Notes under the pieces: model-generated
What the model was told of the DNA's origin: nothing
Seen by the model: the letters and a program-made list of their open reading frames with translations, nothing else
Database searches by the model: none
NCBI RefSeq assembly: GCF_004354085.1
Contig: NZ_SMSE01000003.1
Coordinates: 629,231 to 693,230, forward strand
Direction of reading: 5' to 3'
DNA length: 64,000 nt
DNA from: Seongchinamella unica
Lineage (GTDB): Bacteria; Pseudomonadota; Gammaproteobacteria; Pseudomonadales; Halieaceae
Position numbers and translations under genes: made by a program
Shown here: in pieces, positions 14,820 through 28,906 of the stretch
Layout: each line of letters starts with the position of its first letter
Position numbering within the stretch: the first letter of the stretch is position 1

Positions 14820-16085
14820 CTACAGGCTGAACCGGGCTTCCAGATAGACCCGGTTGCGGTCGTAGTCGTACAGGTCCAGGTCCGAGTTGCGGTCTTCGTA
14901 GCGATACCCCGCCCCCAGGTCAAGCCAGCGGCGCAGGGCATAGGAGTAGCCCAGTTCCACCCCGTACACATCGTCCTGGCGGTCGGAGCCGGAATAGTCC
15001 TCGTTGCGGAACAGGGCGGACAACCGGGTACTGGCGCGGCCATTCCAGTCGTGATCCCAGTCCAGCCGTGTCTCCTGGGTATTCACCGAATCACCCAGGC
15101 CGTTGGTCTCCTGGCTGAACCGCCCTGAGGTCAGGTGAAACACCGAGTAGCTGCGCGGCGTGTAGAAGGCATCAATCTGCCAGGAGAAGCCGTCGTCGTC
15201 CTCGCGCCGGGCAGATTGGTAGCGCCGGTCGAAGCTGCCCAGCTTCACGCTGCCGGAAGTCCTGGCGGTGGGCTCCCAGCTTACCCCCAGGAAGTAGTTG
15301 TACTCGTCGCTGTCGAAGCTGCCGCCGCGGCGCAGTGGGTCTACCAGGTCGTAGCGCACTTCCTGGTAATTCACCTCCGCCAACACATCGGTACGACTGC
15401 CCACCTTCCAGAAAAAGGTGCCCCGGTAGCGGTCGGTATCGCGGTCCCGGTACTGGGTGTCGGCGCGGAAATTCTGGTACTCGATGTCCTGGTACTTGTA
15501 CTCCAGGGTGACCCGGCCACGGGAATTCCGGTTACCCAGGGTGTAATCGGTGCCCAGGCTTTCCCGCTCGTACTCGACCGGCTCGTCGATAAGATTTGCC
15601 ACCCCTTCGGAAAGGCCGGTACCCCGCTGTTCGTGGGTATCCCAGTACTCGCCGTAAATGTTCCAGACATTTCTGGCGTTGAACTCGTGATGCACATCGA
15701 TGTTGAAGCGGTGATCGGTGTAGTCGTCGTCGCTGCTGTCAAAGTAGCGCCAGTCGGTCAGCCTGTAGTCAAAGGAGTAGGTGTTGAGCCCGTTCTGCAG
15801 CCAGGCCTGGACCTTGGGTTCGATCACGCTGAGCCCGGTCTCTTTCTTGTTGTCCGGCGTCCGGAACAGGTTGTCCACGTACTCCAGCCGCGAGTCCAGG
15901 GTGGGCGTGATAAAGACGGAACCCCATTGCAGGTTGGCGGGCTCGAGCGCCGAGGCGGGAACCCCTATCGCCCCCATCCCCAGAACCGCTGCCCCCAGCA
16001 AGGGCCTGCGCATCTCAAATTGTCTCATTGCGTGTTCAATTCCCAGGCTCGCAGCCAGGTATCCAGAATTACCCAAGCCGCCCAT
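14820..16085 (-). CDS. Outer-membrane beta-barrel protein of the EPS locus
   Basis: Up to 421 residues. It is rich in alternating aromatic and polar strands (for example GRVTLEYKYQDIEYQNFRA, DVYGVELGYSYALRRWLDLG) and ends in a C-terminal hydrophobic residue after RVYLEARFSL, as outer-membrane barrels do. Such BBP2-like barrels (VpsM type) occur in exopolysaccharide loci and may provide the exit pore. The start is uncertain: ATG 16085 overlaps the upstream stop (TAATG), but ATG 16028 or 16013 gives a cleaner signal peptide (MRRPLLGAAVLGMGAIGVPA, cut near ASA). Confidence 0.72.
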   Translation of the reverse strand: MGGLGNSGYLAASLGIEHAMRQFEMRRPLLGAAVLGMGAIGVPASALEPANLQWGSVFITPTLDSRLEYVDNLFRTPDNKKETGLSVIEPKVQAWLQNGLNTYSFDYRLTDWRYFDSSDDDYTDHRFNIDVHHEFNARNVWNIYGEYWDTHEQRGTGLSEGVANLIDEPVEYERESLGTDYTLGNRNSRGRVTLEYKYQDIEYQNFRADTQYRDRDTDRYRGTFFWKVGSRTDVLAEVNYQEVRYDLVDPLRRGGSFDSDEYNYFLGVSWEPTARTSGSVKLGSFDRRYQSARREDDDGFSWQIDAFYTPRSYSVFHLTSGRFSQETNGLGDSVNTQETRLDWDHDWNGRASTRLSALFRNEDYSGSDRQDDVYGVELGYSYALRRWLDLGAGYRYEDRNSDLDLYDYDRNRVYLEARFSL

Positions 16086-17515
16086 TATAGATTGTTTGCT
16101 TTATTTTTCACCGCCCAAAACGGGGCGGCTGCGCCGCCCGGCAGGGCTCTCACCACCACCGCCATGGCCAGGATAATGACAAAGGTCAGTGCGTTGGCCG
16201 GTATCTGTAAATTGAAATCCGCGGTCGAGTGAATGGCCGCCCACGCTATCGTCATCAGCACGGCAAAGGCCGCGCCTCTGAGCAGGGGCGTGCGCCGCGT
16301 TCGCAGCGCTCGCAAGGCCTGCACGGCGCACAGGATAACCACCGCCAGCAACGCCGCGGCGGCCGGCAGGCCCAGTTCGACCGCAAATTCCAGGTAGTCA
16401 TTGTGGGCGTGGTCATAAAAGCCCGGCAGGTCCGCGGGCTGGAAGTTGGGAAACACGCCGTAGTAGCTGCCCCCGCCGGAACCCGTGAGGGGGAAGTGCT
16501 GCAGGTAATCCCAGGTATAGGCGTTGGACCACACCCGCCCCTCGGTCTCCGGGTTGGTTTGTTCCAGCCGCTGCACCAGTTGGTCGAAACCGAACCAGCG
16601 TCCGAGGATGAACATGTCCACCACCAGCAGACTGCCCAGGAAGGCCAGAACCCGGGACGAGAAGCGCCCGCTGGCAACCATGTATAACGTGCCGGCAAAC
16701 GCCAGCGAGGTGAAAAAAGCCACATTACCCATGCGCGACCGGGTCAGCACCAGGGCAATCACCATCACCGCCAGGTAAATCCGCAGCCGGATTTTGGCGC
16801 TCAGCAACAGGCGTAGCCAGCGCTCGAGGCGCTGCTTCCAGTTCTCCCCCCCGGTGACCGCCAGTTGCGAAAGCAGCAGGCCAATGCCCGCGGCCAGGCA
16901 CATCACCAGGTAGCCCGCCAGATGGTTGCGGTTGACAAAGGTGCCGGTGGCGACGCCCTGGCCCGCGTACTTTTCCACCAGGAAGCCATACTCGAGGCCG
17001 CTGAGCACCATGAAAGCCCCATAGGCGGCCTGGAAGGTGCCACTGAAAACCAGTACCTGCAGCAGCAGGCGCAAGCGCCGCTGGCTGTTGATGAGGGCAA
17101 TGGTGAGGAAAAAGGCCGCGGTCAACGCGCAGCCCTGCAGCAGGTAAAAGCGGGTGGCGGTCGGGTCCAGGGAGAGGCTCAGCCACCCTTCCCGCAGGTG
17201 CCAGGCAAATGCCTCGGGGGACAGCATTGCCACCACTGGGCGCGGCAGGGGAAGGCCCTGCAACAGCACCCAGCACTGCACCAGTACCAGCAGCGCCAGC
17301 GGCCAGCGCCCATAGTGCCAGGCGTTTGCGCCGATGCTGGTGCGACCGGCCAGGAACAGCAGCAGCCACCCCAGCAACAGGCAGGACACAAGCACTACCA
17401 GCAGGCCGGCCGCCCAGGGGCGATTGGAGGCAAAGGGCAGGGGCGCCCAGACCAGGATCGCCAGGTAAAAGGCGAACAGCCCGGACTCCAGGCGCCCGGG
17501 AATGAAGCTAGGCAT
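16085..17515 (-). CDS. O-antigen ligase/polymerase family protein (Wzy-like)
   Basis: 476 residues with about 11-12 membrane spans. The superfamily marks are the GTFVNRNHLAGYLVM segment in the middle and the large periplasmic loop with GSGGGSYYGVFPNFQPADL and YDHAHNDYLEFAVELG, whose His-Asn-Asp is typical of this family. It would polymerise lipid-linked repeat units on the periplasmic side. It lies upstream of the barrel gene, overlapping it by the TAATG junction. It has normal high GC, unlike the second polymerase-like gene at 1278-2438. Confidence 0.82.
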   Translation of the reverse strand: MPSFIPGRLESGLFAFYLAILVWAPLPFASNRPWAAGLLVVLVSCLLLGWLLLFLAGRTSIGANAWHYGRWPLALLVLVQCWVLLQGLPLPRPVVAMLSPEAFAWHLREGWLSLSLDPTATRFYLLQGCALTAAFFLTIALINSQRRLRLLLQVLVFSGTFQAAYGAFMVLSGLEYGFLVEKYAGQGVATGTFVNRNHLAGYLVMCLAAGIGLLLSQLAVTGGENWKQRLERWLRLLLSAKIRLRIYLAVMVIALVLTRSRMGNVAFFTSLAFAGTLYMVASGRFSSRVLAFLGSLLVVDMFILGRWFGFDQLVQRLEQTNPETEGRVWSNAYTWDYLQHFPLTGSGGGSYYGVFPNFQPADLPGFYDHAHNDYLEFAVELGLPAAAALLAVVILCAVQALRALRTRRTPLLRGAAFAVLMTIAWAAIHSTADFNLQIPANALTFVIILAMAVVVRALPGGAAAPFWAVKNKANNL

Positions 17516-17536
17516 ATTCCCGGCGACTGGGGCGGA

Positions 17537-18022
17537 TCAGGAAGCCGGGCTCACGGGTGGCCGGGTGCCGCCAAGCGGGGGACGGGTACCACCGCCGGGG
17601 CCCTGGGGATTATAGGCGCCACCACCGGTCGGTTCCGCGGGGTCGTGGTGGATGAAGGGCTGGTCCATAAACTCCAGATAGGCCTGCAACGCGGCATCGA
17701 CCGCCGCACTGTCGCCGGAGGCGAGCCGGGCAGCCGCGGCCACTGACTCCGCCTCTGGCAGGTTTGCAGCCGCGGCAATGCCAGCACGAGTGAAGGAATC
17801 GGCGTTGGCCTCGCCCCCGGCCTCAATGGCCATTGCCGTTGCATCCTCAAGGCCGAGCTCAAAGGGCGCCTGCTGCAACTGGCTGATGATGGCGGCGTGC
17901 TCGACACCTTCGGTCAGTGCTGCATTAACCGCTGTGACCACTGCTTCCGGGGCGGCTGACCGGGCCTGTGCCGCCATTACCATCAACACTATTGCACAGA
18001 GGGCGGAGAGCATACGATTCAT
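17537..18022 (-). CDS. Secreted protein of unknown function with Gly/Pro-rich tail
   Basis: 161 residues. It has a signal peptide (MNRMLSALCAIVLMVMAAQA, cut near ARSA), an Ala-rich helical middle and a low-complexity tail with two GGTRPP units (GGGTRPPLGGTRPPVSPAS). It starts at ATG 18022 and lies 21 bases upstream of the polymerase gene on the same strand, so it is probably the first gene of the exopolysaccharide operon. I do not recognise the family. The flexible tail suggests a periplasmic or surface role in polymer export, but this is a guess. Confidence 0.6.
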   Translation of the reverse strand: MNRMLSALCAIVLMVMAAQARSAAPEAVVTAVNAALTEGVEHAAIISQLQQAPFELGLEDATAMAIEAGGEANADSFTRAGIAAAANLPEAESVAAAARLASGDSAAVDAALQAYLEFMDQPFIHHDPAEPTGGGAYNPQGPGGGTRPPLGGTRPPVSPAS

Positions 18023-18122
18023 ACATTAATCCCGGGGCAGACGAAGCGCGAAAAGTTCAAAGCAGGTGCCAACACCGTAATTTTTTCTTCCCGGGGTGTC
18101 AATTTCCGCTGACAAACGCGGC

Positions 18123-18572
18123 TTACCATGCGAAACCGGCAATCACCACAAAGCGCTCACTACCGGCCTCACCACTCACTATACGGTCGCCGCATTGCAG
18201 CCAGGCGTGGGCCAGTGAGTCGCTTTCCCGGGGGAAACCTTCGCGGTTGACCCCGAGGTAAAATTGTCCCGGTATCCCGCGCCGCACCAGCAGGTGCCGG
18301 GTTGCCAATACCTGCGCCAGGCAGCGGCTGGACCAGGGGGTGGCCGCAGCCGCATGCGCCACCAGGCGGCCCAACTCCTCCGCCCTCGCCACAATCTCCG
18401 GCGCCAGTGCCGGGGGTGTCTGCCCGCCGTTATCTCGCGCCAGGTCCCGGGTGATTCGCTTCAATGGTACGCTTGCCAGCGCGAGCCGGTAGTACAGCAG
18501 CAGGCACCAGGCCTGGCCCATCAGCATTTTCTGGCGAAAGCTTAACGCCAGGAATTTTTTGGCGCGATGCAT
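18123..18572 (-). CDS. Lasso peptide B2 protein (transglutaminase-like leader peptidase)
   Basis: 149 residues matching the stand-alone B2 domain of lasso biosynthesis (C-terminal part of McjB). The catalytic Cys84 is in WSSRCLAQVLATRHLLVRRG and His122 in SLAHAWLQCG. The third member of the triad is less clear: Asp129 or Glu135 (VSGE) is nearby. B2 removes the leader from the precursor with help from the B1/RRE protein, which is not fused here and not found nearby. The gene is divergent from exporter D, with about 95 bases between its ATG (18572) and the D start. Confidence 0.85.
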   Translation of the reverse strand: MHRAKKFLALSFRQKMLMGQAWCLLLYYRLALASVPLKRITRDLARDNGGQTPPALAPEIVARAEELGRLVAHAAAATPWSSRCLAQVLATRHLLVRRGIPGQFYLGVNREGFPRESDSLAHAWLQCGDRIVSGEAGSERFVVIAGFAW

Positions 18573-18666
18573 TGGCAGTGGCGACCCGTGGACCTAATTG
18601 TGTACGCTGGCCACTTTAACAAATCAGCCCGTGCAATCCCATCCACGGCAGCGAAGCGGACAGGCA

Positions 18667-20367
18667 ATGAATCTCACCCCCCTGCTGGGCATTATCACCC
18701 CCCATCGCCGGGTGCTGTATGCGATCCTGGCACTGATGCTGGCCTCGGCGGGGCTCAATCTGCTACAGCCCTGGCTCGCCGGAAAGCTGACTGAGGCAGT
18801 GCTGGGCAACACCGGCGCCTGGAATGTACAACAGTTACTGCTGCTGTGGCTGCCGCTGCTGGCACTGCGCGCCATATTCGAGTTTGGCAGCCGCTACCGT
18901 ACGGGTTCTGCCGGCGAGGAGATGAGCGCGCAACTGAGATTGCGGGTATTCCAGCACCTGCAGGCACTGCCACTGAGCTACTACCAGCAGCGGCGCAAGG
19001 GTGAAGTGCTTACCCTCCTGGGCAAGGACGCAGATATCATCAGCCACTTTGTTACCAGCACCCTGGTCAGCCTGCTGCCACTGGCACTGACCTTTATCGG
19101 GGCCCTGGTGATGATGCTGTTCATCGACCCATTAATCGCACTGCTCGCTGCCCTGCTGCTGCCGCTTTACTACCTGGCGATGAAGCTGCTGGGGCGCCAT
19201 ATCCGCCCCGTTTCCAGGGCCTGGGTCAGCGCCTACAGCGACTTGATCAGTTTTTTTGAACAGCACCTGAGCATGAAGCCGGCGGTCAAAAGTTTTGCCC
19301 GCGAAGAACTGGAGGAATCCCGGTTCATGACCCACAACCAATATTTCCTCAGCCTGGCGCGCCGCCAACTGCTGCTGGAAGCCCTGCTGCCACCGGTCAT
19401 TGGCCTGTTGGCCGGCCTGGGACTGCTGCTACTGCTGTGGCTGGGCAGTGCGCGCATCGAGGCCGGACAATTGAGCCCGGCGAACATGGTCAGCCTGCTG
19501 CTGTACGCAATGTTGATGAGCCAGCCACTGCGCAGCCTGGCCAATGTCTATGGCCAGGTGCAACAAACCCTGGGGGCCGCAGAGCGCATTTTGCAGTTAC
19601 TGGCTGAGCAGCCAGAGCCGGATGATCGGGGCCTGGCTGTCCTGCCCCCGGTGCGCGGCGATATCCTCTTTGACCAGGTGTATTTCCGCTACCCGCAGGG
19701 CAAGCCGGTGTTGGTAAACCGCAACCTGCACATCCGCGCCGGGGAAACTGTGGCCCTTGTCGGCCCCAATGGCGCGGGCAAATCCACCATTGTCTTCCTG
19801 CTGCAACGCATGGCGGACCCAGACCAGGGGCGTATCCTGATTGATAACATCGACATTGCCAGCGTCAGCCTGTCCAGCCTGCGGCGCCAGATCGGCCTGG
19901 TCGCACAGCATACCCTGCTGGTGAACGGAAGCGTTGCCGACAATATTGCCTGGGGCTGCCCGGGGGTTGATAAGTCAGCCATTGAAGCGGCTGCGCGCAA
20001 GGCCATGGCAGACGGATTTATTGCCGCGCTGCCCGAGGCCTATGACACCCTGATCGGCGACCAGGGCATTAAATTATCGGGTGGACAAAGACAGCGCATC
20101 TCCCTGGCCCGGACCCTGTTGCTGGATCCGCCGATCCTGATTCTGGACGAGGCCACCGCGATGTTTGATCCCGAGGGAGAAGCTGATTTATTCGAGGCCT
20201 GTCGGCAGTTGATGGCCGATCGAACCGTGATCATCATTACGCACCGGCCGGCAGCACTGGCACTGGCAGACCGCGTGCTGACCATTGAACCGGTGACTGA
20301 TAACGGGCACGGGGGTACATTCAATGCACGAGCGGGCGCCGATCAAGACCTGTTGCAGCCCTTGTAG
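18667..20367 (+). CDS. ABC transporter, fused permease-ATPase (lasso peptide exporter D)
   Basis: 566 residues from the ATG at 18667 (MNLTPLLGIITPHRRV); an in-frame start at 18598 adds 23 residues without membrane character. Six membrane spans occupy about 1-310. The ATPase domain follows: Walker A GPNGAGKST (about 366), signature KLSGGQRQRISLAR (about 468), Walker B ILILDEATAMFDPEGE. No C39 peptidase domain is present, as expected where B2 cuts the leader. It would export and give self-immunity to the mature lasso peptide. Its last 25 bases overlap the 3' end of the precursor gene on the other strand. Confidence 0.88.
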   Translation: MNLTPLLGIITPHRRVLYAILALMLASAGLNLLQPWLAGKLTEAVLGNTGAWNVQQLLLLWLPLLALRAIFEFGSRYRTGSAGEEMSAQLRLRVFQHLQALPLSYYQQRRKGEVLTLLGKDADIISHFVTSTLVSLLPLALTFIGALVMMLFIDPLIALLAALLLPLYYLAMKLLGRHIRPVSRAWVSAYSDLISFFEQHLSMKPAVKSFAREELEESRFMTHNQYFLSLARRQLLLEALLPPVIGLLAGLGLLLLLWLGSARIEAGQLSPANMVSLLLYAMLMSQPLRSLANVYGQVQQTLGAAERILQLLAEQPEPDDRGLAVLPPVRGDILFDQVYFRYPQGKPVLVNRNLHIRAGETVALVGPNGAGKSTIVFLLQRMADPDQGRILIDNIDIASVSLSSLRRQIGLVAQHTLLVNGSVADNIAWGCPGVDKSAIEAAARKAMADGFIAALPEAYDTLIGDQGIKLSGGQRQRISLARTLLLDPPILILDEATAMFDPEGEADLFEACRQLMADRTVIIITHRPAALALADRVLTIEPVTDNGHGGTFNARAGADQDLLQPL

Positions 20368-20525
20368 TGACCGTTGTTGCCGCACTCGTCAACCTGGCTG
20401 TTGTTAAGCGAACCGGTTCTGTCACGCACCGCACCCAGATTCCAGAAGCGGGGGGTTTTGTAGGACAATCTCTGGCTCGCCGCAGCGCTGGTAAGAGATT
20501 GCTTGTCGGTTTCTTTTATTGCCAC
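20343..20525 (-). CDS. Lasso peptide precursor A
   Basis: A 60-residue precursor from a GTG at 20525, two bases after the cyclase stop, with AAGAG upstream. The leader carries the lasso recognition pattern: Tyr22, Pro25, Gly31 and Thr37 in YKTPRFWNLGAVRDRT (Phe27 in the usual Leu place). With Thr at -2 the core starts at Ser39 (SLNNSQVDEC...) and has 22 residues. Ring acceptors could be Asp46 (core 8) or Glu47 (core 9). Cys48 and Cys57 (core 10 and 19) lie after the ring. The core ends ...GCNRS with Ser60. If Thr is taken as -1, Gly38 starts the core and Asp46 becomes position 9. A longer in-frame ATG (20591) overlaps the cyclase and is less likely. Confidence 0.85.
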   Translation of the reverse strand: MAIKETDKQSLTSAAASQRLSYKTPRFWNLGAVRDRTGSLNNSQVDECGNNGHYKGCNRS

Positions 20526-20527
20526 GT

Positions 20528-22444
20528 TTATCCACTCTTGTTGTGCTGCAACCAGGACGCGAGTACGAAAGCCGCTTTGGCGCGTGTGCACACGACATCA
20601 AAAGCCCGCCGCTCTTCCGGCAGGCTGTTAAGCCCTGATAACAGGGCGTTCAGTTTATCATCATCCAAACGCCCGGCAAGTAAGGCCCGGGACCCGGCGA
20701 TGGTCTCTTGAATATGCTTGCGCTCACGCAGCAACCAGGCGCGCTCGAAGTCCCAGCCAACGTGGTCGTTGGCGCCACGGCGCCAGCAGATGGCCGGCGG
20801 CAGTTCCCGTTCAGCGGCCAGGCGCATCAGATATTTGTTCCAACCTTCCTGTACTTTCAGCTGCCAGGGCAGGCCCAGCATGAACTCAACCAGCCGCTTG
20901 TCCATTAGCGGATGACGCGGCTCCACGCCCACGCTGGCCGCCAGGCGGTGATAGCGCTCCAGGCCCACCACAGAATACGGGTGCCGCAGGTAATCGATAC
21001 TCAACTGGGCAATCGGCTGCGGGCCTGCAGCGGGCTGTTTGTAATCCCGCAATTGCCGTAGCCTCTGGCCGAGGCCGATATCGCGGGCAAACTCCCGATT
21101 CACCAGGCTGCTCGCCAGTGCCAGGCGCTCGGCCCGGCCCACACTGAATTTCCGTCTTAGCCGGCGCAGCGGGTCGGGCACAAGTGCAAACCGCGTGCTC
21201 TGCCAGCTCAGCGAGAGCGTCCCGACCTGGCCGCCATAGGTGTTTTCGGCCTGCAGCCCGCAGAGGCGTAACGCCTCCCGCCAGCGCCCGGCCCGCATCA
21301 GATATGCCGGATAGTTGGGGGGGACCGAAGCGGCGCCGTCGCCGTCTATCCCATCCAGCACCACCCGGTACTGCCCCTGTTCGGCCCGCAGGTACACTGC
21401 CGCCACCATCAGCATCGGGTCAAAAGGCTCGAACGGATTCGTCAGCAGGGCGTTCAGCTTCTGCTCCAGGTTACCGGGGTCTTCAGCCTGCACACCGTGC
21501 CAGTCCAGGCCGCCCTGGGCCACCACCTGGTCGATATGCTGGCGCTCACGGACTGCCCGCTCACTGCTGCCCAGGGCGGAGATCACCGGCAGGCGGTCAG
21601 GCCCTCGCAGCCGCCTTGCGTGCGCGACGATGGTGGATGAATCCAGGCCACCGCTGAGCATGGCCGCACAGCCTGACCCCGGCTCCAGTCGGTCGGCCAC
21701 CGCCTGGCGATAGAGGCTGTCGAAAGCCTCCACCGCGTCGTTGGTGCACCACTCCGTCTCGGGTTCCGTGGGCAGTTCCGGCTGCCAGTACTGGCGGATG
21801 TGCAGCCCCTGCTCGCCATAGGTCAGCACATGAGCGGGCGGAAGACGGTACACGCTGGCGTAGAAGGTCGACTGCTTATCCAGACCCTCCAGCTCAACCA
21901 CCAGGAAGTCGGCGATCCTGGCTTCATTGAGCCCTATCCTATCCTGGAATGCCTGCCGGATAGCCCGGGCATCCGTGCAGAACGCCAGGCCGCCCGGCCC
22001 CAGGTAGTAGTTGAGTGGACGCACACCCAGATGATCACGGGCACAGAAAAGCCGGCGGCGCTTTTCGTCCCAGATGGCAAAGGCAAAGTCGCCGATCAGC
22101 CGGCTGACACAGTCCTCACCCCAGGTTTTATAAGCTTCCAGGATCAGCCGGCTGTCGCTGTAGGCCGCGACCTGTTGGTCGAGGCGCAGGCTGGCTAGCA
22201 GTTCCCTGCGGTTATCGAGGCGGGCGTCGGCCACCACCGCCAGCCCGGCCGGCTCATCGTGCAGTACACCGTCCTGCGGCCGCGTGGGAGAGGTATTGAG
22301 CAGGTGCTGACCCAGACAGAGGCCGGGCAGTTGCCGGGCAGACGTCGCATCCGGGCCCCATTGTCTGCAGGCGCCGGACAACCGCTCGAAGCGGGCTGCG
22401 GAATCGGCGGACTGCGCCGTCATCAAGCCAAAAATCGCACTCAA
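20528..22444 (-). CDS. Asparagine synthetase-like lasso cyclase C
   Basis: 638 residues. An N-terminal glutaminase-like domain (about 1-220) begins MSAIFG and lacks the catalytic Cys at position 2, so it cannot use glutamine in the usual way. The C-terminal synthetase domain has the ATP pyrophosphatase loop LSGGLDSST (264-270 for SGGLDSS). In lasso systems this enzyme adenylates the Asp/Glu side chain and closes the ring on the core N-terminus. It starts at a TTG overlapping the stop of the kinase gene (TTGA) and is followed two bases later by the precursor, so K-C-A form one coupled operon. Confidence 0.9.
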   Translation of the reverse strand: MSAIFGLMTAQSADSAARFERLSGACRQWGPDATSARQLPGLCLGQHLLNTSPTRPQDGVLHDEPAGLAVVADARLDNRRELLASLRLDQQVAAYSDSRLILEAYKTWGEDCVSRLIGDFAFAIWDEKRRRLFCARDHLGVRPLNYYLGPGGLAFCTDARAIRQAFQDRIGLNEARIADFLVVELEGLDKQSTFYASVYRLPPAHVLTYGEQGLHIRQYWQPELPTEPETEWCTNDAVEAFDSLYRQAVADRLEPGSGCAAMLSGGLDSSTIVAHARRLRGPDRLPVISALGSSERAVRERQHIDQVVAQGGLDWHGVQAEDPGNLEQKLNALLTNPFEPFDPMLMVAAVYLRAEQGQYRVVLDGIDGDGAASVPPNYPAYLMRAGRWREALRLCGLQAENTYGGQVGTLSLSWQSTRFALVPDPLRRLRRKFSVGRAERLALASSLVNREFARDIGLGQRLRQLRDYKQPAAGPQPIAQLSIDYLRHPYSVVGLERYHRLAASVGVEPRHPLMDKRLVEFMLGLPWQLKVQEGWNKYLMRLAAERELPPAICWRRGANDHVGWDFERAWLLRERKHIQETIAGSRALLAGRLDDDKLNALLSGLNSLPEERRAFDVVCTRAKAAFVLASWLQHNKSG

Positions 22445-23367
22445 AATACGCGCTCTAAGGCCTGGCGCACCGCGGGAAGCAGATCGAATTGCCGGGGGTA
22501 TTGCAGACGATAAACAGCGGGCCTGGCCGCCAATAAACCGTCGAAGGTCTCGAAGTGTTGTCGCATCACGGTTTTGTTGCCCGGATCGACCAGGAACAAT
22601 TGCTCGATCAGTGCCATAAGCTGGTCCGCGCCGGCCACCGGTTCGAGATCAATGGCCTGATCGGTGGACTTCTCCAGCAGAAACATCCCGTCCAGTTGGC
22701 CAGGCGCCGGCAATTGCGCTGCTGCACCCGGGGACAAATAGCGTTGCTTGCTGGAATAGTGGGCCACGTCACCAATACAGGCACCGAGTTCAGGCACTCT
22801 GGCTGCCGAGTCTTCGAACAATCGCACACCCGCGTAGTTGCCCACCAGCGATACTCCCCGGGAGGTGATTCGAACAGCAAAGCAATCATCGCTCAGCAGG
22901 GTTCCGCCCGCGGCAGCAAAACTCGCCGCCAGTGTTGACTTGCCCGCCCCCGACTGCCCAAGCAGGGCAAAACTTCTCTGGTGATAATTCACCAGCGCCC
23001 CGTGCAAAATCAGCTCTCCCGACTGCCCCAGCATCCGCGGTAACACCTGGTCAACCAGCAGGTGCCGCAGGGTGTACGCATTCAATGTCCTGCTCGGCTC
23101 AAAATAAACCGCACGGCAGTCAAGGCTTACCAGAAAGTCCTGCAGACCCAGGAAGCGCAGCCAGTAGCCTTCAGGGGCCATTCCCACGTGCAGGAAATCG
23201 GTTCCGTCACAGCTGCACCAGCGCTGTATCCAGCGCACTTGTCCAATCCTGAGCCCGGGATGCAGGCGCACGCCAAGGTGGGGGCTTGGTGCTCCGGCCT
23301 CCGCAGCCGGCAGTTCAGGCAGGGCAATGTCGCTCTCCAGCGGCACATCGAAAATGGTGTATTGCAA
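22441..23367 (-). CDS. HPr kinase-like protein of the lasso cluster (K)
   Basis: 308 residues with the HprK-type P-loop LLGQSGAGKSTLAASF (GQSGAGKST at 137-145), followed by the LLSDDCFAV segment (SDD at 159-161) characteristic of HPr-kinase-like folds. No HPr/PTS genes are near. In paeninodin-type clusters such a kinase phosphorylates the C-terminal Ser of the lasso precursor; the precursor here ends in Ser, which fits. TTG start at 23367. It overlaps the cyclase start by four bases. Confidence 0.87.
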   Translation of the reverse strand: MQYTIFDVPLESDIALPELPAAEAGAPSPHLGVRLHPGLRIGQVRWIQRWCSCDGTDFLHVGMAPEGYWLRFLGLQDFLVSLDCRAVYFEPSRTLNAYTLRHLLVDQVLPRMLGQSGELILHGALVNYHQRSFALLGQSGAGKSTLAASFAAAGGTLLSDDCFAVRITSRGVSLVGNYAGVRLFEDSAARVPELGACIGDVAHYSSKQRYLSPGAAAQLPAPGQLDGMFLLEKSTDQAIDLEPVAGADQLMALIEQLFLVDPGNKTVMRQHFETFDGLLAARPAVYRLQYPRQFDLLPAVRQALERVF

Positions 23368-23563
23368 GGGTGTTCCAATCCACAGGTAGACGCTGACATA
23401 CGCCGGAGCGTGTTATCAATCCGGTATATTATCACTGTCGCTGCCACTGAAAGCATTTTGGAGCGCGCTGTGGGCGCTGCCACTTACCGCCACTCATCAC
23501 TGGCCCGAAAGGCGTAACTGATCTAAAGTCAAAGAATAAAAGATCACAGCAGGGGTCAGTGCG

Positions 23564-23650
23564 ATGTTCAGCGCCGCAAAAGTGGCACCGGTGGCCGCCG
23601 GCATTCTGGCGTCCATGGTCAGTTATTCTCTCGCCAGTCCGGCGTGCTAA
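23564..23650 (+). CDS. Small signal-peptide-like ORF upstream of the repeat protein
   Basis: 28 codons from ATG 23564 with a purine-rich AGGGG upstream. The peptide MFSAAKVAPVAAGILASMVS continues YSLASPAC and looks like a signal sequence, then stops at TAA. The frame is the same as that of the large repeat protein starting 34 bases later. It may be a short leader ORF, a decayed first signal peptide or chance; no family is known. Confidence 0.3.
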   Translation: MFSAAKVAPVAAGILASMVSYSLASPAC

Positions 23651-23683
23651 CGTGGTGAAAGGCCAGACAAGGGTGGCATCCCG

Positions 23684-26600
23684 GTGCTGCAACAAGAACG
23701 CCCCCTAGCGACCAAAACCATCCGCCTTCCGCTCATCAGCGCCATCGCCACCCTGGCGCTGACCACAGCGGCCAGTGTCCTCACGTGGCCGGACGCCCAC
23801 GCCGGCGCCTGCCCCAGCGCCCCGGAGCAGGGCAATCTCTGCACCGCCAGGGACTTCATCGTCTCCAGCGCCATTGTCGACGGCCCCAGCGAATGCACGG
23901 CGGGAGAAACCATTGCGGTAACGGTTCGGGTCGGGCTGACGTCCACGGCCAACCAGCGCTACGACATCGGCATTTTCAGCGGCGATCACGGTGAGCCGGT
24001 GTTTGGCGGCGCCAGTTGCAGCCTCGACGCACTGGTGCCACTGGAGCCCCCCTTCGACGGGGACTCGGGCTTCGGCGGCTATCGCGACCTGGACGGCGAC
24101 GCCTGCGGTGACGTCAGTGAAACGGACGGGGAAATTTTCCGGGACGTCGCCCTCGACAAGGTGCTGTGCCAGGACAACGACGGCGACGGCCAGGTGGATA
24201 TCAGCGGCCTGGTGACCTGGAGCAGTAACGCCAGTCAGGACGTGTGCAGCGACCCGACGGACCCGGTGCAGTTTTTCCCCACCTCCAGTTCCAAGTGCAT
24301 CCTGAACCCGGATTTCAACCTGCCGATCATTGTGGAACCGCCCCCCTCCCTGCGGGTGTTCAAGCTGGCCTTCCCCGGCAACCTTCCCGCCCCCGGGGGC
24401 AATGTGCTGTTTGTCCTGGACCTGGATAACAACTCCACAGGCACCGACCCCATTACCGTCTCCAGCCTGGTGGACGATGTGCACGGCGACGTGACCCGGG
24501 TACAGGGCACGGTCAGCCAGACCAACTGCTCGGTTCCCCAGCTGCTGGTACCGGGAGCTAGCTATACCTGTGAGTTTGTCGCCGAGGTCACCGGCCCCCC
24601 TGATTACGTCGAGGTCGACACGATTACGGTGACGGGCACAGACGATGAAGGGGAAATCGTCACCGCCACGGGCCAGGCCCGGGTGATTATTGGCGATGAA
24701 CCGGCCTCGATACTGGTGGGCAAGTCGGTCACGCCCACGGTGGTCAGGGAGCCGGGTGAGGTGGTCACCTACTCGGTACTGGTCGCCAATGAGTCCGACA
24801 CCGAGTCGGTTGAGATCACCACCCTGGACGACGATCTCTACGGCTCCCTGTCAGGGGTCGGCAACTGTCCGCTCCTGCCATTCAGCCTGGCGCCCGGCGA
24901 GATCATGCGCTGCAAGTTCCTGGAATTGGTCAGCGGCAACGCCGGTGACCCCCCGGTTGTCGACGTGATTACCGCCGATGGTCCGGGAATCGATTTCAAG
25001 ACCGATGACGCCGCGGTGAGCATCGCGGATGTGGCGGCGTCCATCGAGGTCAGCAAAACCGCCATACCGAGATCGTTACCGGAACCCGGCGGTACCTTCA
25101 CCTATGAGTTGCAGGTCCAGAATACCTCGCCGGTTGATACGGTCACCATCGATGCCATCGCCGACACCCCCTATGGCGACCTCGATGGCCAGGGTAGCTG
25201 CGCCGTTGGCCAGACGCTGGCACCCGCCGAGATCTACAGCTGCAGCTTCACCCGGGAATTTCTCGGGCCACCCGGCGCATTTCAGTCCAACGTGATCAGC
25301 GTCACCGGCACCGATGCGGATGGCGGCCGCGAGTTCGATTATGACTTCGCCACCGTGTTTATCGAGGATGTGCCCTCGTCACTGGCGGTCACCAAGACCC
25401 CGAACCGGGCCGAGCAAATTGCCGGGGGACCCGTGGTCTACACCGTATCGGTGGAGAACACCTCGGCCGCGGACACGATCACCCTGAACGGGATGCAGGA
25501 CACCCCCTACGGCGACATCACGACAGTCGGCGGCGCTATCACCGCCACCACCTGCGCTCTCACTCCCGCTATCGTCCTGCCCCCTGCCGGCAACTATACC
25601 TGCCAGTTCACCGCCACCGTCACCGGCGCGCTGGGAGAGGGGGTAACCGATACCGTGTCGGTCAGCGGGATTGATAATGCGACGAATATCGTGATCGGTG
25701 CCGATTCGGCGACCGTGACCATCGTGGATAATAGCCAGCCGCCGCCTCCCCTGGCGGTGATCGTCACCAAGGTGGCCCTGCCGAGCGCCGTGCCCGTCGA
25801 CGCTGTGCCGGCAGACGTCACCTACCTATTCAGGGTCGCCAACCCCAACGGTTTCGATATCCAGATCACAGACCTGGCCGATGATATTTACGATATCCGT
25901 GGCAACGCGCCGGCCAAACTACCCGTAACGACACTGCGGGATTGCCCGCTGCCGTTTCTGCTGGCGGCGGGCCAGTCACGGGTCTGTATCTTCTCCGGCG
26001 CCGTTGACGGTAGCGAGGGGGACGTGGTGACGGACGTGATCACCGTCTTTGCCTGTGCCCCGCCCGCCTGCGCCGAGACCGTCACCGACAGCGATGACGC
26101 CAGCGTCACCATCACGCCAGGCGCCAGCAGCCTGGCGCTGCTGAAGACCGCCGATCCGGTCACTGTGCAGAGTCCGGGGGGGCCGGTGACTTTCACCGTG
26201 GAGGCCATCAACACCTCCCCCTCGGCACAGATCACGATCACCAGCCTGGTCGATGACATCTACGGCGACATCACCGCCGTCGCGGGCGATATCACCAGCA
26301 CCAATTGCGCCAACGGGCAGGTGCTTGCGCCCTCGGGGGGTCGCTACAGTTGCAGCTTTAGCGCCAACGTCACCGGCGTGGCCGGCACTGAAGTGGTCGA
26401 CACCGTGACCGCCAGTGGCGAAGCGACCGGCGGTTATCCCGTACAGGGCGCCGACAGCGCCACGGTTGAAATTCTGGGCCTGCTGCCACGGGTGGAGATG
26501 ACCAAGACAGCCGACCCGGTCGCGGTAAGGGCACCGGGTGGCACGGTCACCTTCACTGCGGAAGTGTTGAATACCTCGGCCACCGAGACGTTGACGATGA

Positions 26601-26950
26601 CCAGCCTGGTGGACGATGTTTATGGCGACCTCAATGGCCAGGGTAACTGCGCAACCCCGCAGGTGATCGCGGCGGCCGCGACCTACCGCTGCGAGTTTCC
26701 CGGTGTGGTGAGCGGCGACAACGCGAGCCTGCACCGCGACACCATCGCCATGGCGGGTAGCGATGAGAGTGGCGACCCCGTCGCCGACAGTGACTGGGCC
26801 GTGGTCCTGGTATTGCCCTTCGGGATTGGCGGCGAACCGATTCCGGTGCCGGTGAATCCGCTGTGGCTGGCGATAGCGGCCAGCGCCGGCGGTATCGGAC
26901 TGGGCCTGCTGGCCCTGTGGCGGCGGCAGCGGCGCAAGCAATCCAGCTAG
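23684..26950 (+). CDS. Large surface protein with seven DUF11-like repeats
   Basis: 1088 residues. A GTG start (23684, AAGGG upstream) precedes a signal peptide (IRLPLISAIATLALTTAASV, cut after DAHA). A Cys-containing N-terminal domain with Asp-rich loops (GDGQVDISG) follows. Seven Ig-like repeats of about 111-125 residues begin near 222, 341, 452, 566, 691, 816 and 936, each opening with a xLxVxKt-type strand (SILVGKS, SIEVSKT, SLAVTKT, RVEMTKT). They resemble DUF11/TIGR01451 repeats of cell-surface proteins. The C-terminus is tripartite: PVPVNP, one membrane span, then a WRRQRRK tail, a sorting or anchoring signal. Probably an adhesin or matrix protein; no enzymatic motif seen. Confidence 0.8.
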   Translation: MLQQERPLATKTIRLPLISAIATLALTTAASVLTWPDAHAGACPSAPEQGNLCTARDFIVSSAIVDGPSECTAGETIAVTVRVGLTSTANQRYDIGIFSGDHGEPVFGGASCSLDALVPLEPPFDGDSGFGGYRDLDGDACGDVSETDGEIFRDVALDKVLCQDNDGDGQVDISGLVTWSSNASQDVCSDPTDPVQFFPTSSSKCILNPDFNLPIIVEPPPSLRVFKLAFPGNLPAPGGNVLFVLDLDNNSTGTDPITVSSLVDDVHGDVTRVQGTVSQTNCSVPQLLVPGASYTCEFVAEVTGPPDYVEVDTITVTGTDDEGEIVTATGQARVIIGDEPASILVGKSVTPTVVREPGEVVTYSVLVANESDTESVEITTLDDDLYGSLSGVGNCPLLPFSLAPGEIMRCKFLELVSGNAGDPPVVDVITADGPGIDFKTDDAAVSIADVAASIEVSKTAIPRSLPEPGGTFTYELQVQNTSPVDTVTIDAIADTPYGDLDGQGSCAVGQTLAPAEIYSCSFTREFLGPPGAFQSNVISVTGTDADGGREFDYDFATVFIEDVPSSLAVTKTPNRAEQIAGGPVVYTVSVENTSAADTITLNGMQDTPYGDITTVGGAITATTCALTPAIVLPPAGNYTCQFTATVTGALGEGVTDTVSVSGIDNATNIVIGADSATVTIVDNSQPPPPLAVIVTKVALPSAVPVDAVPADVTYLFRVANPNGFDIQITDLADDIYDIRGNAPAKLPVTTLRDCPLPFLLAAGQSRVCIFSGAVDGSEGDVVTDVITVFACAPPACAETVTDSDDASVTITPGASSLALLKTADPVTVQSPGGPVTFTVEAINTSPSAQITITSLVDDIYGDITAVAGDITSTNCANGQVLAPSGGRYSCSFSANVTGVAGTEVVDTVTASGEATGGYPVQGADSATVEILGLLPRVEMTKTADPVAVRAPGGTVTFTAEVLNTSATETLTMTSLVDDVYGDLNGQGNCATPQVIAAAATYRCEFPGVVSGDNASLHRDTIAMAGSDESGDPVADSDWAVVLVLPFGIGGEPIPVPVNPLWLAIAASAGGIGLGLLALWRRQRRKQSS

Positions 26951-27006
26951 AATCCGAATAATTTTCGTGCGGCGCCTGCCACGGTGCGCAGAACCGGGCC
27001 CAACCC

Positions 27007-27432
27007 TCAGGCGACCGCCAGATCCGACGCCCTGCGGCCGCGCCTCATGCGTCGATTGGGCTTGCCTGAATGGTCAAAGAATTCCCGCTCGATCTGGGAC
27101 AGGCCACGCCGGTCCTTTCTGCCGGAACGGCGGTCTTCGTGATGCACGTACACGCAGTCACAGCGGGCGGCGGTGCAGCCCGGCAACGGCAGGGACGGCG
27201 CCTCGCGCTCCAGGAAGCGTTTGCCGTCCAGGTTCCTGACCGCCGGGCAGGGACCACTGCATGACACCGCCCGGTACTGGCTGCGGGCGGCTGGCTTTAC
27301 CTGTTTGTAGTGACTGGAGGCCTGGTAAACGGGCGCAGACCGGACCCTGGGCTGACGCTTGTGGGCGAACAGCCGAAGAAACAACACGATGCCGGCGGCG
27401 AGCGCAGCGGCGAGTACGAACGTCTCAATCAT
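27007..27432 (-). CDS. Membrane-anchored Cys-rich protein of unknown function
   Basis: From ATG 27432 about 141 residues. A single N-terminal membrane helix (FVLAAALAAGIVLFLRLFA) is followed by a basic linker and a compact Cys-rich part: SCSGPCPAV, LPGCTAARCDCVYVHHEDRR. It ends in a run of Arg-rich segments (SGRKDRRG, RRMRRGRRAS). The CxxxxCxC with HHEDRR recurs in uncharacterised gammaproteobacterial proteins as I remember it; metal binding is possible. It is isolated between the repeat protein and purA. Confidence 0.6.
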   Translation of the reverse strand: MIETFVLAAALAAGIVLFLRLFAHKRQPRVRSAPVYQASSHYKQVKPAARSQYRAVSCSGPCPAVRNLDGKRFLEREAPSLPLPGCTAARCDCVYVHHEDRRSGRKDRRGLSQIEREFFDHSGKPNRRMRRGRRASDLAVA

Positions 27433-27550
27433 GGGAATCCTTCCCCCGAATAATTGATTTACCGTCTGATTATCGAGTGTAGACCCCGGCAATCATTTCT
27501 GGCCAGCAATTTTAGATGAGTGGTCGCTAACGATTTATGGGCGGTTTGCG

Positions 27551-27580
27551 GCGCAGGACCCCGCTTGCGCGGGGGTGACG
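27551..27580. repeat. REP-like palindrome
   Basis: Contains ggaccccgcttgcgcggggg followed by tgacg, a copy of the dispersed REP-like family, just downstream of purA. Confidence 0.75.
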
Positions 27581-27598
27581 ATAATCTGAGAGGTGGCT

Positions 27599-28906
<1,308 letters not shown>

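Follow-up and report, generated by a model that had tools for sequence, protein, structure and literature searches.

A Predicted Lasso Peptide Gene Cluster with an HprK-like Kinase and a Candidate Leader-Binding Protein Encoded in trans in Seongchinamella unica

Lasso peptide gene clusters bearing a kinase are already known, including from Proteobacteria (PMC9266682, PMC5067487, PMC8498205). Here we describe a variant in a 64-kb stretch (hereafter the window; contig NZ_SMSE01000003.1, positions 629,231 to 693,230) of the 4.19-Mb genome (G000) of the gammaproteobacterium Seongchinamella unica (Halieaceae). Five uninterrupted open reading frames (ORFs), whose coordinates were confirmed as originally predicted, encode a kinase similar to HPr kinase (K), a macrolactam cyclase (C), a precursor (A), an ABC exporter (D) and a leader peptidase (B2), and we consider it likely that they form a lasso peptide biosynthetic cluster assisted by a leader-binding protein (B1) encoded in trans. 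The evidence comprises gene identity, leader and active-site residues, the predicted fold of the kinase, the phylogenies of kinase and cyclase, and the conservation of B1 outside the cluster. The variant is distinguished by its kinase group, its B1 in trans, and a core peptide with two cysteines that ends in Ser. In a literature search covering titles and the beginnings of abstracts, we found no Halieaceae lasso kinases, no second lineage of lasso kinases and no lasso B1 in trans.

The five genes and the predicted peptide

The leader peptidase B2 (18123–18572, minus strand; 149 aa) is transglutaminase-like and passes the cut-off of its lasso NCBIfam model (NF033537, 75.7 vs. 33 bits). Its Cys84 and His122 are invariant in all 10 aligned B2 proteins, one of which comes from a paeninodin-family cluster. 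C (20528–22444, minus strand; 638 aa, TTG start) fits the lasso cyclase model NF033535 best (388.6 bits), ahead of asparagine synthase (194.8 bits) and XrtA amidotransferase (168.1 bits), and XrtA amidotransferases of three relatives show the reverse pattern, with 1042–1068 bits on their own model and 225–257 bits on the lasso model. Unlike glutamine amidotransferases, C has no Cys2; it does contain SGGLDSS. In a quick, midpoint-rooted tree, in which AsnB is represented by a single row and XrtA by none, C clusters with the lasso-locus cyclases of two other Halieaceae genomes (5-row clade, SH-aLRT 100) and is separate from the genome's own AsnB-like protein; the grouping with housekeeping asparagine synthetases that had been proposed as a refutation of the cluster was thus not what the tree showed. 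The model scores, the tree and the missing Cys2 led us to reject C as a housekeeping asparagine synthetase or an XrtA amidotransferase. The exporter D (18667–20367, plus strand; 566 aa) matches PF00664 (157.4 bits) and PF00005 (113.4 bits).

K (22441–23367, minus strand; 308 aa, TTG start) overlaps C by 4 nt and the stop of C is 2 nt from the start of A, in agreement with the earlier observation that these genes overlap or nearly touch, and from this spacing K, C and A are read as a single putative operon. D converges on A, with which it overlaps tail to tail by 25 nt, and B2 diverges from D. A promoter scan found none, where 1.4 were expected by chance.

The precursor A (20343–20525, minus strand; 60 aa, GTG start) consists of a 38-aa leader with the lasso motif Y-17, P-14, G-8 and T-2, and a 22-residue core, SLNNSQVDECGNNGHYKGCNRS, which is encoded at 20346..20411 and ends in Ser22. 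The cut site was placed by the published rule of a penultimate Thr in the leader (T-2). A search for the strict leader motif in ORFs of 35–140 aa, covering 123.5 kb of genome sequence, gave A as its single match, whereas the mean in 60 first-order simulated 64-kb sequences was 0.017. The ring would run from Ser1 to Asp8 (or Glu9). In four genomes of the same genus (G026, G027, G028 and G030), C is followed by a precursor with the leader motif and Asp8 or Glu8 in its core, which supports a Ser1–Asp8 ring in A; a second kind of precursor, with a Trp-type leader and Glu7, occurs in G026 and G031. Both Cys10 and Cys19 lie outside a ring of 8 or 9 residues and may form a disulfide as in class IV lasso peptides. 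The most likely product is predicted to be a lasso peptide of a class IV-like type, its ring joining Ser1 to Asp8, that is phosphorylated before folding.

Near-twin precursors with cores of the form S/NFTNINEN...C...CPS were also seen in two other genomes of the genus (L090 3591–3782 and L088 9355–9540). They have a Trp-type leader, two cysteines in the tail, a C-terminal Ser and a nearby kinase of the paeninodin side (see below), and thus parallel the core in the window.

A leader-binding protein outside the cluster

All five genes that were originally taken together as a lasso system are present, but that prediction missed that the set has no B1: there is no PqqD-like gene inside the cluster. 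The genome encodes just one PqqD-like protein (93 aa), whose gene adjoins a lemA-like one (identified by eye) at a distance of 60 kb. Among proteins of solved structure, the lasso protein TbiB1 is its nearest match (E 1.3e-12), and among NCBIfam models the lasso PqqD family ranks first (59.5 bits, under the cut-off of 80); it scores the lasso models above TIGR04353. A second lasso cluster in the genome was rejected, since there is just one B2 and one PqqD match genome-wide.

To what extent this B1 accompanies B2 can be seen across the family. Strong B1 matches (E 1e-18 or better) were found in 24 of 140 Halieaceae genomes. B2 was found by sequence in 12 of the 140 (one match being weak) and by profile in one more, G055, among the 18 genomes so tested. 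B1 is present in 11 of these 13 B2 genomes and in 13 of the other 127 (P = 2e-8, Fisher's exact test, which ignores relatedness and mixes two ways of detecting B2). Of the two B2 genomes lacking B1, G033 is 71% complete and G049 87%. Four genomes of the genus, the window's included, carry B1 and B2 on one contig, and there the two genes are 31–65 kb apart. Among the 24 best-match loci, not all of them long, 11 show a lemA-like gene beside B1. In G055, B1 and B2 lie together about 460 kb from C and K. These results suggest that the remote protein is likely to be the leader-binding partner of this cluster. With B1, and once both B1 and B2, located far from the cluster in Halieaceae, cluster-based mining could call such clusters incomplete.

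The kinase and two groups of lasso kinases

Profile scores of K are weak: 33.7 bits for HprK_rel_A (TIGR04352), 29.1 bits for HprK_rel_B (TIGR04355) and 21.9 bits for Hpr_kinase_C. Over 18 aligned kinases, H122, K143 and D160 of K are invariant and D161 is conserved in at least 90%, which fits the catalytic His-Lys-Asp-Asp reported for lasso kinases (PMC9266682) when compared with the published motif rather than with PadeK itself. A sequence search of the PDB gave only weak P-loop matches (HprK at E 0.11), and an AlphaFold model of K was therefore used instead (pLDDT 91.5). Phosphoenolpyruvate (PEP) carboxykinases rank first against this model, with TM-scores to the query of about 0.36–0.53, and HprK/P structures appear at rank 48; the PEP carboxykinase/HprK fold class is the one expected of HprK-like kinases. 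With the lasso models of B2 and C and the leader motif of A, these residues uphold the original description of a lasso cluster with an HprK-like enzyme.

Relatives of K were collected from Halieaceae genomes, other phyla, 398 genomes of the same phylum, and plasmids (searches returning 4 and 15 records, three of which were examined). Such kinases had been said to occur in Firmicutes and a few Proteobacteria. This is an understatement, as lasso kinases are widespread: a relative with an E value of 4e-22 or better is present in 29 of the other 397 same-phylum genomes sampled, four of them in the window's class, and further relatives were found in Acidobacteria, Myxococcales, Nitrospirae and Thermoleophilaceae. 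Of 59 kinase loci, 47 have C, B1 or B2, or more than one of these, nearby.

On a Priestia aryabhattai plasmid, an annotated paeninodin-family peptide adjoins the kinase, so that this kinase marks the known type in the tree. (The kinase itself, WP_243495797.1 at L220 5656–6591, is annotated as "aldolase," apparently in error.) A careful tree of 60 rows places the window's K in a clade of 27, split at 100/97 from 33 rows that include the Priestia kinase. Forcing K to the Priestia side costs 15.8 log units, with an approximately unbiased (AU) test P of 0.066 (0.124 in an earlier 57-row tree). K therefore probably lies outside the paeninodin branch, a placement that is well supported by branch values and not proved by the AU test, and the label "paeninodin type" that the cluster had been given is not supported for its kinase. 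A quick tree had 62 rows, with L123 (cut) dropped; the careful trees dropped L123, L036_801, L183 (two), L184 (long branches) and L163 (identical to L162), and proteins longer than 345 aa were reduced to their last 330 residues.

The two sides differ in their precursors. Precursors were sought by regular expression, and only loci that gave a match are counted: 13 of 16 on the Priestia side have a precursor ending in Ser, whereas none of the 11 on the window's side does, the window itself apart. L184, whose precursor ends in G and whose kinase the quick tree had placed with the paeninodin-side kinases, would make the former tally 13 of 17. The 13 loci are not independent, five being near-identical neighbours in one clade (L169, L170, L171, L173 and L176), and the Ser state changes at least 4 times on the kinase tree. 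The precursors of L157, L158 and L161 matched a loose pattern only, and two peptides ending in N were not counted, namely a loose match in L093 and the first precursor of L088, which is beside another C. Of the other loci on the window's side, 26 in all, 16 have a methyltransferase relative close to K, among them 9 of the 11 in which a precursor was detected; on the Priestia side this holds for 3 of the 16 loci with a precursor (L088, L089 and L090). Proximity was scored by a script, except that L221 was judged from annotation. The window's cluster has no methyltransferase gene.

In this comparison, lasso-cluster kinases split into two groups, and only one of them goes with Ser-ending precursors. 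We tentatively suggest, while holding the opposite to be somewhat more probable, that the window's group is a second lineage of HprK-like lasso kinases that is free of the C-terminal-Ser rule and often accompanied by a methyltransferase, in which the window would be a hybrid, with a Ser-ending two-cysteine peptide and a distant, shared B1. As the sole Ser-ending exception seen in its kinase group, the window offers a natural test of whether the kinase lineage or the end of the precursor decides the target.

Several precursors of the methyltransferase-plus-kinase type (L110 3834–4019, L121 6649–6810, L088 4242–4451, L089 13065–13424 and L154 5559–5714) have Met-rich tails, one ending in GMSMGMGMGMGMN, that might indicate metal binding. 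Five precursors of other phyla (L110, L115, L117, L121 and L122) end in Cys-Leu. In another genome of the genus (G027, L036 607–3047), a short peptide ending in GS is followed by a distant HprK-like gene, a PqqD-like gene and a seemingly radical-SAM gene, possibly another peptide-modification system.

Genomic setting, alternative explanations and known systems

The cluster adjoins an exopolysaccharide locus, as had been noted: Wza-like, beta-barrel and O-antigen-ligase genes lie at lower coordinates. On the other side are a 1088-aa protein with DUF7507/DUF11 repeats (23684–26950) and then purA (named by eye). A gene that looks similar to that of the 1088-aa protein borders the cluster of G028 (L041 4589–7558). 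Lasso clusters of differing content recur in Halieaceae beside purA and/or the O-antigen ligase of an exopolysaccharide locus (window 16085–28894, L036, L037, L041, L088, L089, L091 and L094; neighbours by eye), which resembles an exchange hot spot. Recent acquisition of the window's cluster was considered and rejected, its GC content of 0.60–0.64 being unremarkable beside the 0.61–0.65 of its neighbours.

In the course that we propose, the ribosome would make the 60-aa precursor A, and B1, supplied from 60 kb away, would bind the leader via Y-17 and P-14. K would then use ATP to phosphorylate the still linear precursor, in the likeliest case on its C-terminal Ser22, B2 would cut after Gly-1, and C would close the Ser1–Asp8 isopeptide ring around the tail; a Cys10–Cys19 disulfide may form, and D would export the product. 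Phosphorylation before folding is adopted from what is described for paeninodin (PMC9266682), and Ser22 is favoured as the site for its place at the C terminus, where the characterised lasso kinases modify a Ser (PMC9266682, PMC8498205). Since relatives of K serve precursors without a C-terminal Ser, we give Ser22 only about even odds.

Several points weigh against this course. A matches no NCBIfam or Pfam model, and core position 1 is Ser where relatives commonly have Gly. The profile check by which the cluster was to be judged came out mixed: B2 exceeds its cut-off and C is best on the lasso cyclase model, but C stays under the NF033535 cut-off of 525 and K under its own (HprK_rel_A 33.7 vs. 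200 bits, with Hpr_kinase_C also below its cut-off). None of the 11 other precursors detected in K's 27-row clade ends in Ser, as described above. Moreover, in six Halieaceae genomes of genus g23, a kinase adjoins a Wza-like gene (by eye) with no B2 found by profile and no C in the stretch read, and these kinases fall in the same 12-row clade as K (93/97).

The alternative that deserves the most attention, though we still regard it as unlikely, accepts the lasso cluster and lets K modify the peptide elsewhere than at its end, for example at Ser5 in the ring or at Ser1, as the second lineage presumably does where the precursor has no C-terminal Ser. The 11 other precursors detected in K's clade, none of them Ser-ending, all have a Ser or Thr among the first nine residues of the core. 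Ring Ser/Thr residues are also common in the paeninodin-side cores, and so do not discriminate the target site; as a sign of it they were discarded. A itself ends in Ser, and the AU test leaves some room for K on the paeninodin side (P = 0.066), both of which speak against this alternative. It is considerably less probable that K is a kinase of the adjoining exopolysaccharide locus and overlaps C by accident. The g23 loci give this explanation its strength, and their C-like matches are at XrtA level (none listed for G117; the G118 match that was checked is an XrtA amidotransferase). The overlap with C recurs in G050, however, and the relatives of K in Acidobacteria, a deltaproteobacterium, Nitrospirae and Thermoleophilaceae adjoin C or a lasso precursor. 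Even the g23 loci are ambiguous: all six have near K a conserved small ORF (L034 9263, L038 8106, L039 9752, L040 9981, L042 8308 and L043 9612) with RRxxVK...YIAPTLTVLG or a near variant, then A-x-A-Q, and a Pro-rich tail after the motif; the one tested had no NCBIfam match. The motif would be a Tat signal peptide or else a recognition motif of the B1 type, and in the latter case K may have a peptide substrate in these loci as well, with no cyclase involved.

Just as improbable, in our judgment, is a cluster that is inactive or independent of B1, with the remote PqqD protein serving something else. The same B1 is kept in 13 Halieaceae genomes without B2 by sequence or profile, and pseudomycoidin reportedly can form without a leader peptidase. 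Yet the five ORFs are intact, the remote protein is the genome's only PqqD match and is nearest to a lasso B1, and B1 and B2 lie together in G055. That C should be an amidotransferase of a housekeeping or polysaccharide pathway, with A a chance ORF, can hardly be credited: the score of C below the lasso cut-off favours it, but the model scores and the cyclase tree place C with lasso cyclases, the genome has a separate AsnB-like protein, a leader motif as rare as that of A would scarcely arise by chance, and the same-genus genomes repeat the order of C and precursor in comparable loci. A lasso cluster served by a B1 in trans thus remains the reading that we prefer.

Among known systems, HprK_rel_A/B kinases (TIGR04352, TIGR04355) occur with PqqD proteins in exosortase loci. 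They share with K a weak similarity and an exopolysaccharide neighbourhood, but K scores far below the cut-off of 200 and the remote B1 prefers the lasso models over TIGR04353. Class IV lasso peptides such as LP2006 resemble the predicted product in that two cysteines outside its ring could give one disulfide; LP2006 is actinobacterial and is not known to have a kinase. The methyltransferase-plus-kinase clusters of Halieaceae, Acidobacteria, a deltaproteobacterium, Nitrospirae, Thermoleophilaceae and some other Pseudomonadota share the kinase clade of the window, and some of those in Halieaceae also have its nearest cyclases and a B1 in trans. What sets them apart is that K has a class I methyltransferase-like gene nearby and that the cores end in L, P, M or A, several of them being Met-rich, whereas the window has no methyltransferase and a Ser end. 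With the paeninodin/SyanK-type clusters of Paenibacillus, Priestia, Sphingobium and other Proteobacteria, the window's cluster has in common C, B2 and D, a Ser-ending precursor and an HprK-like kinase that bears His-Lys-Asp-Asp. It differs from them in the probably separate clade of its kinase, the absence of B1 from the cluster and two cysteines in the tail. Its gene order, K-C-A / D / B2, is also unlike the orders C-A-K-B1-B2-D and A-B1-B2-C-K-D that are described for kinase-bearing clusters (PMC5067487).

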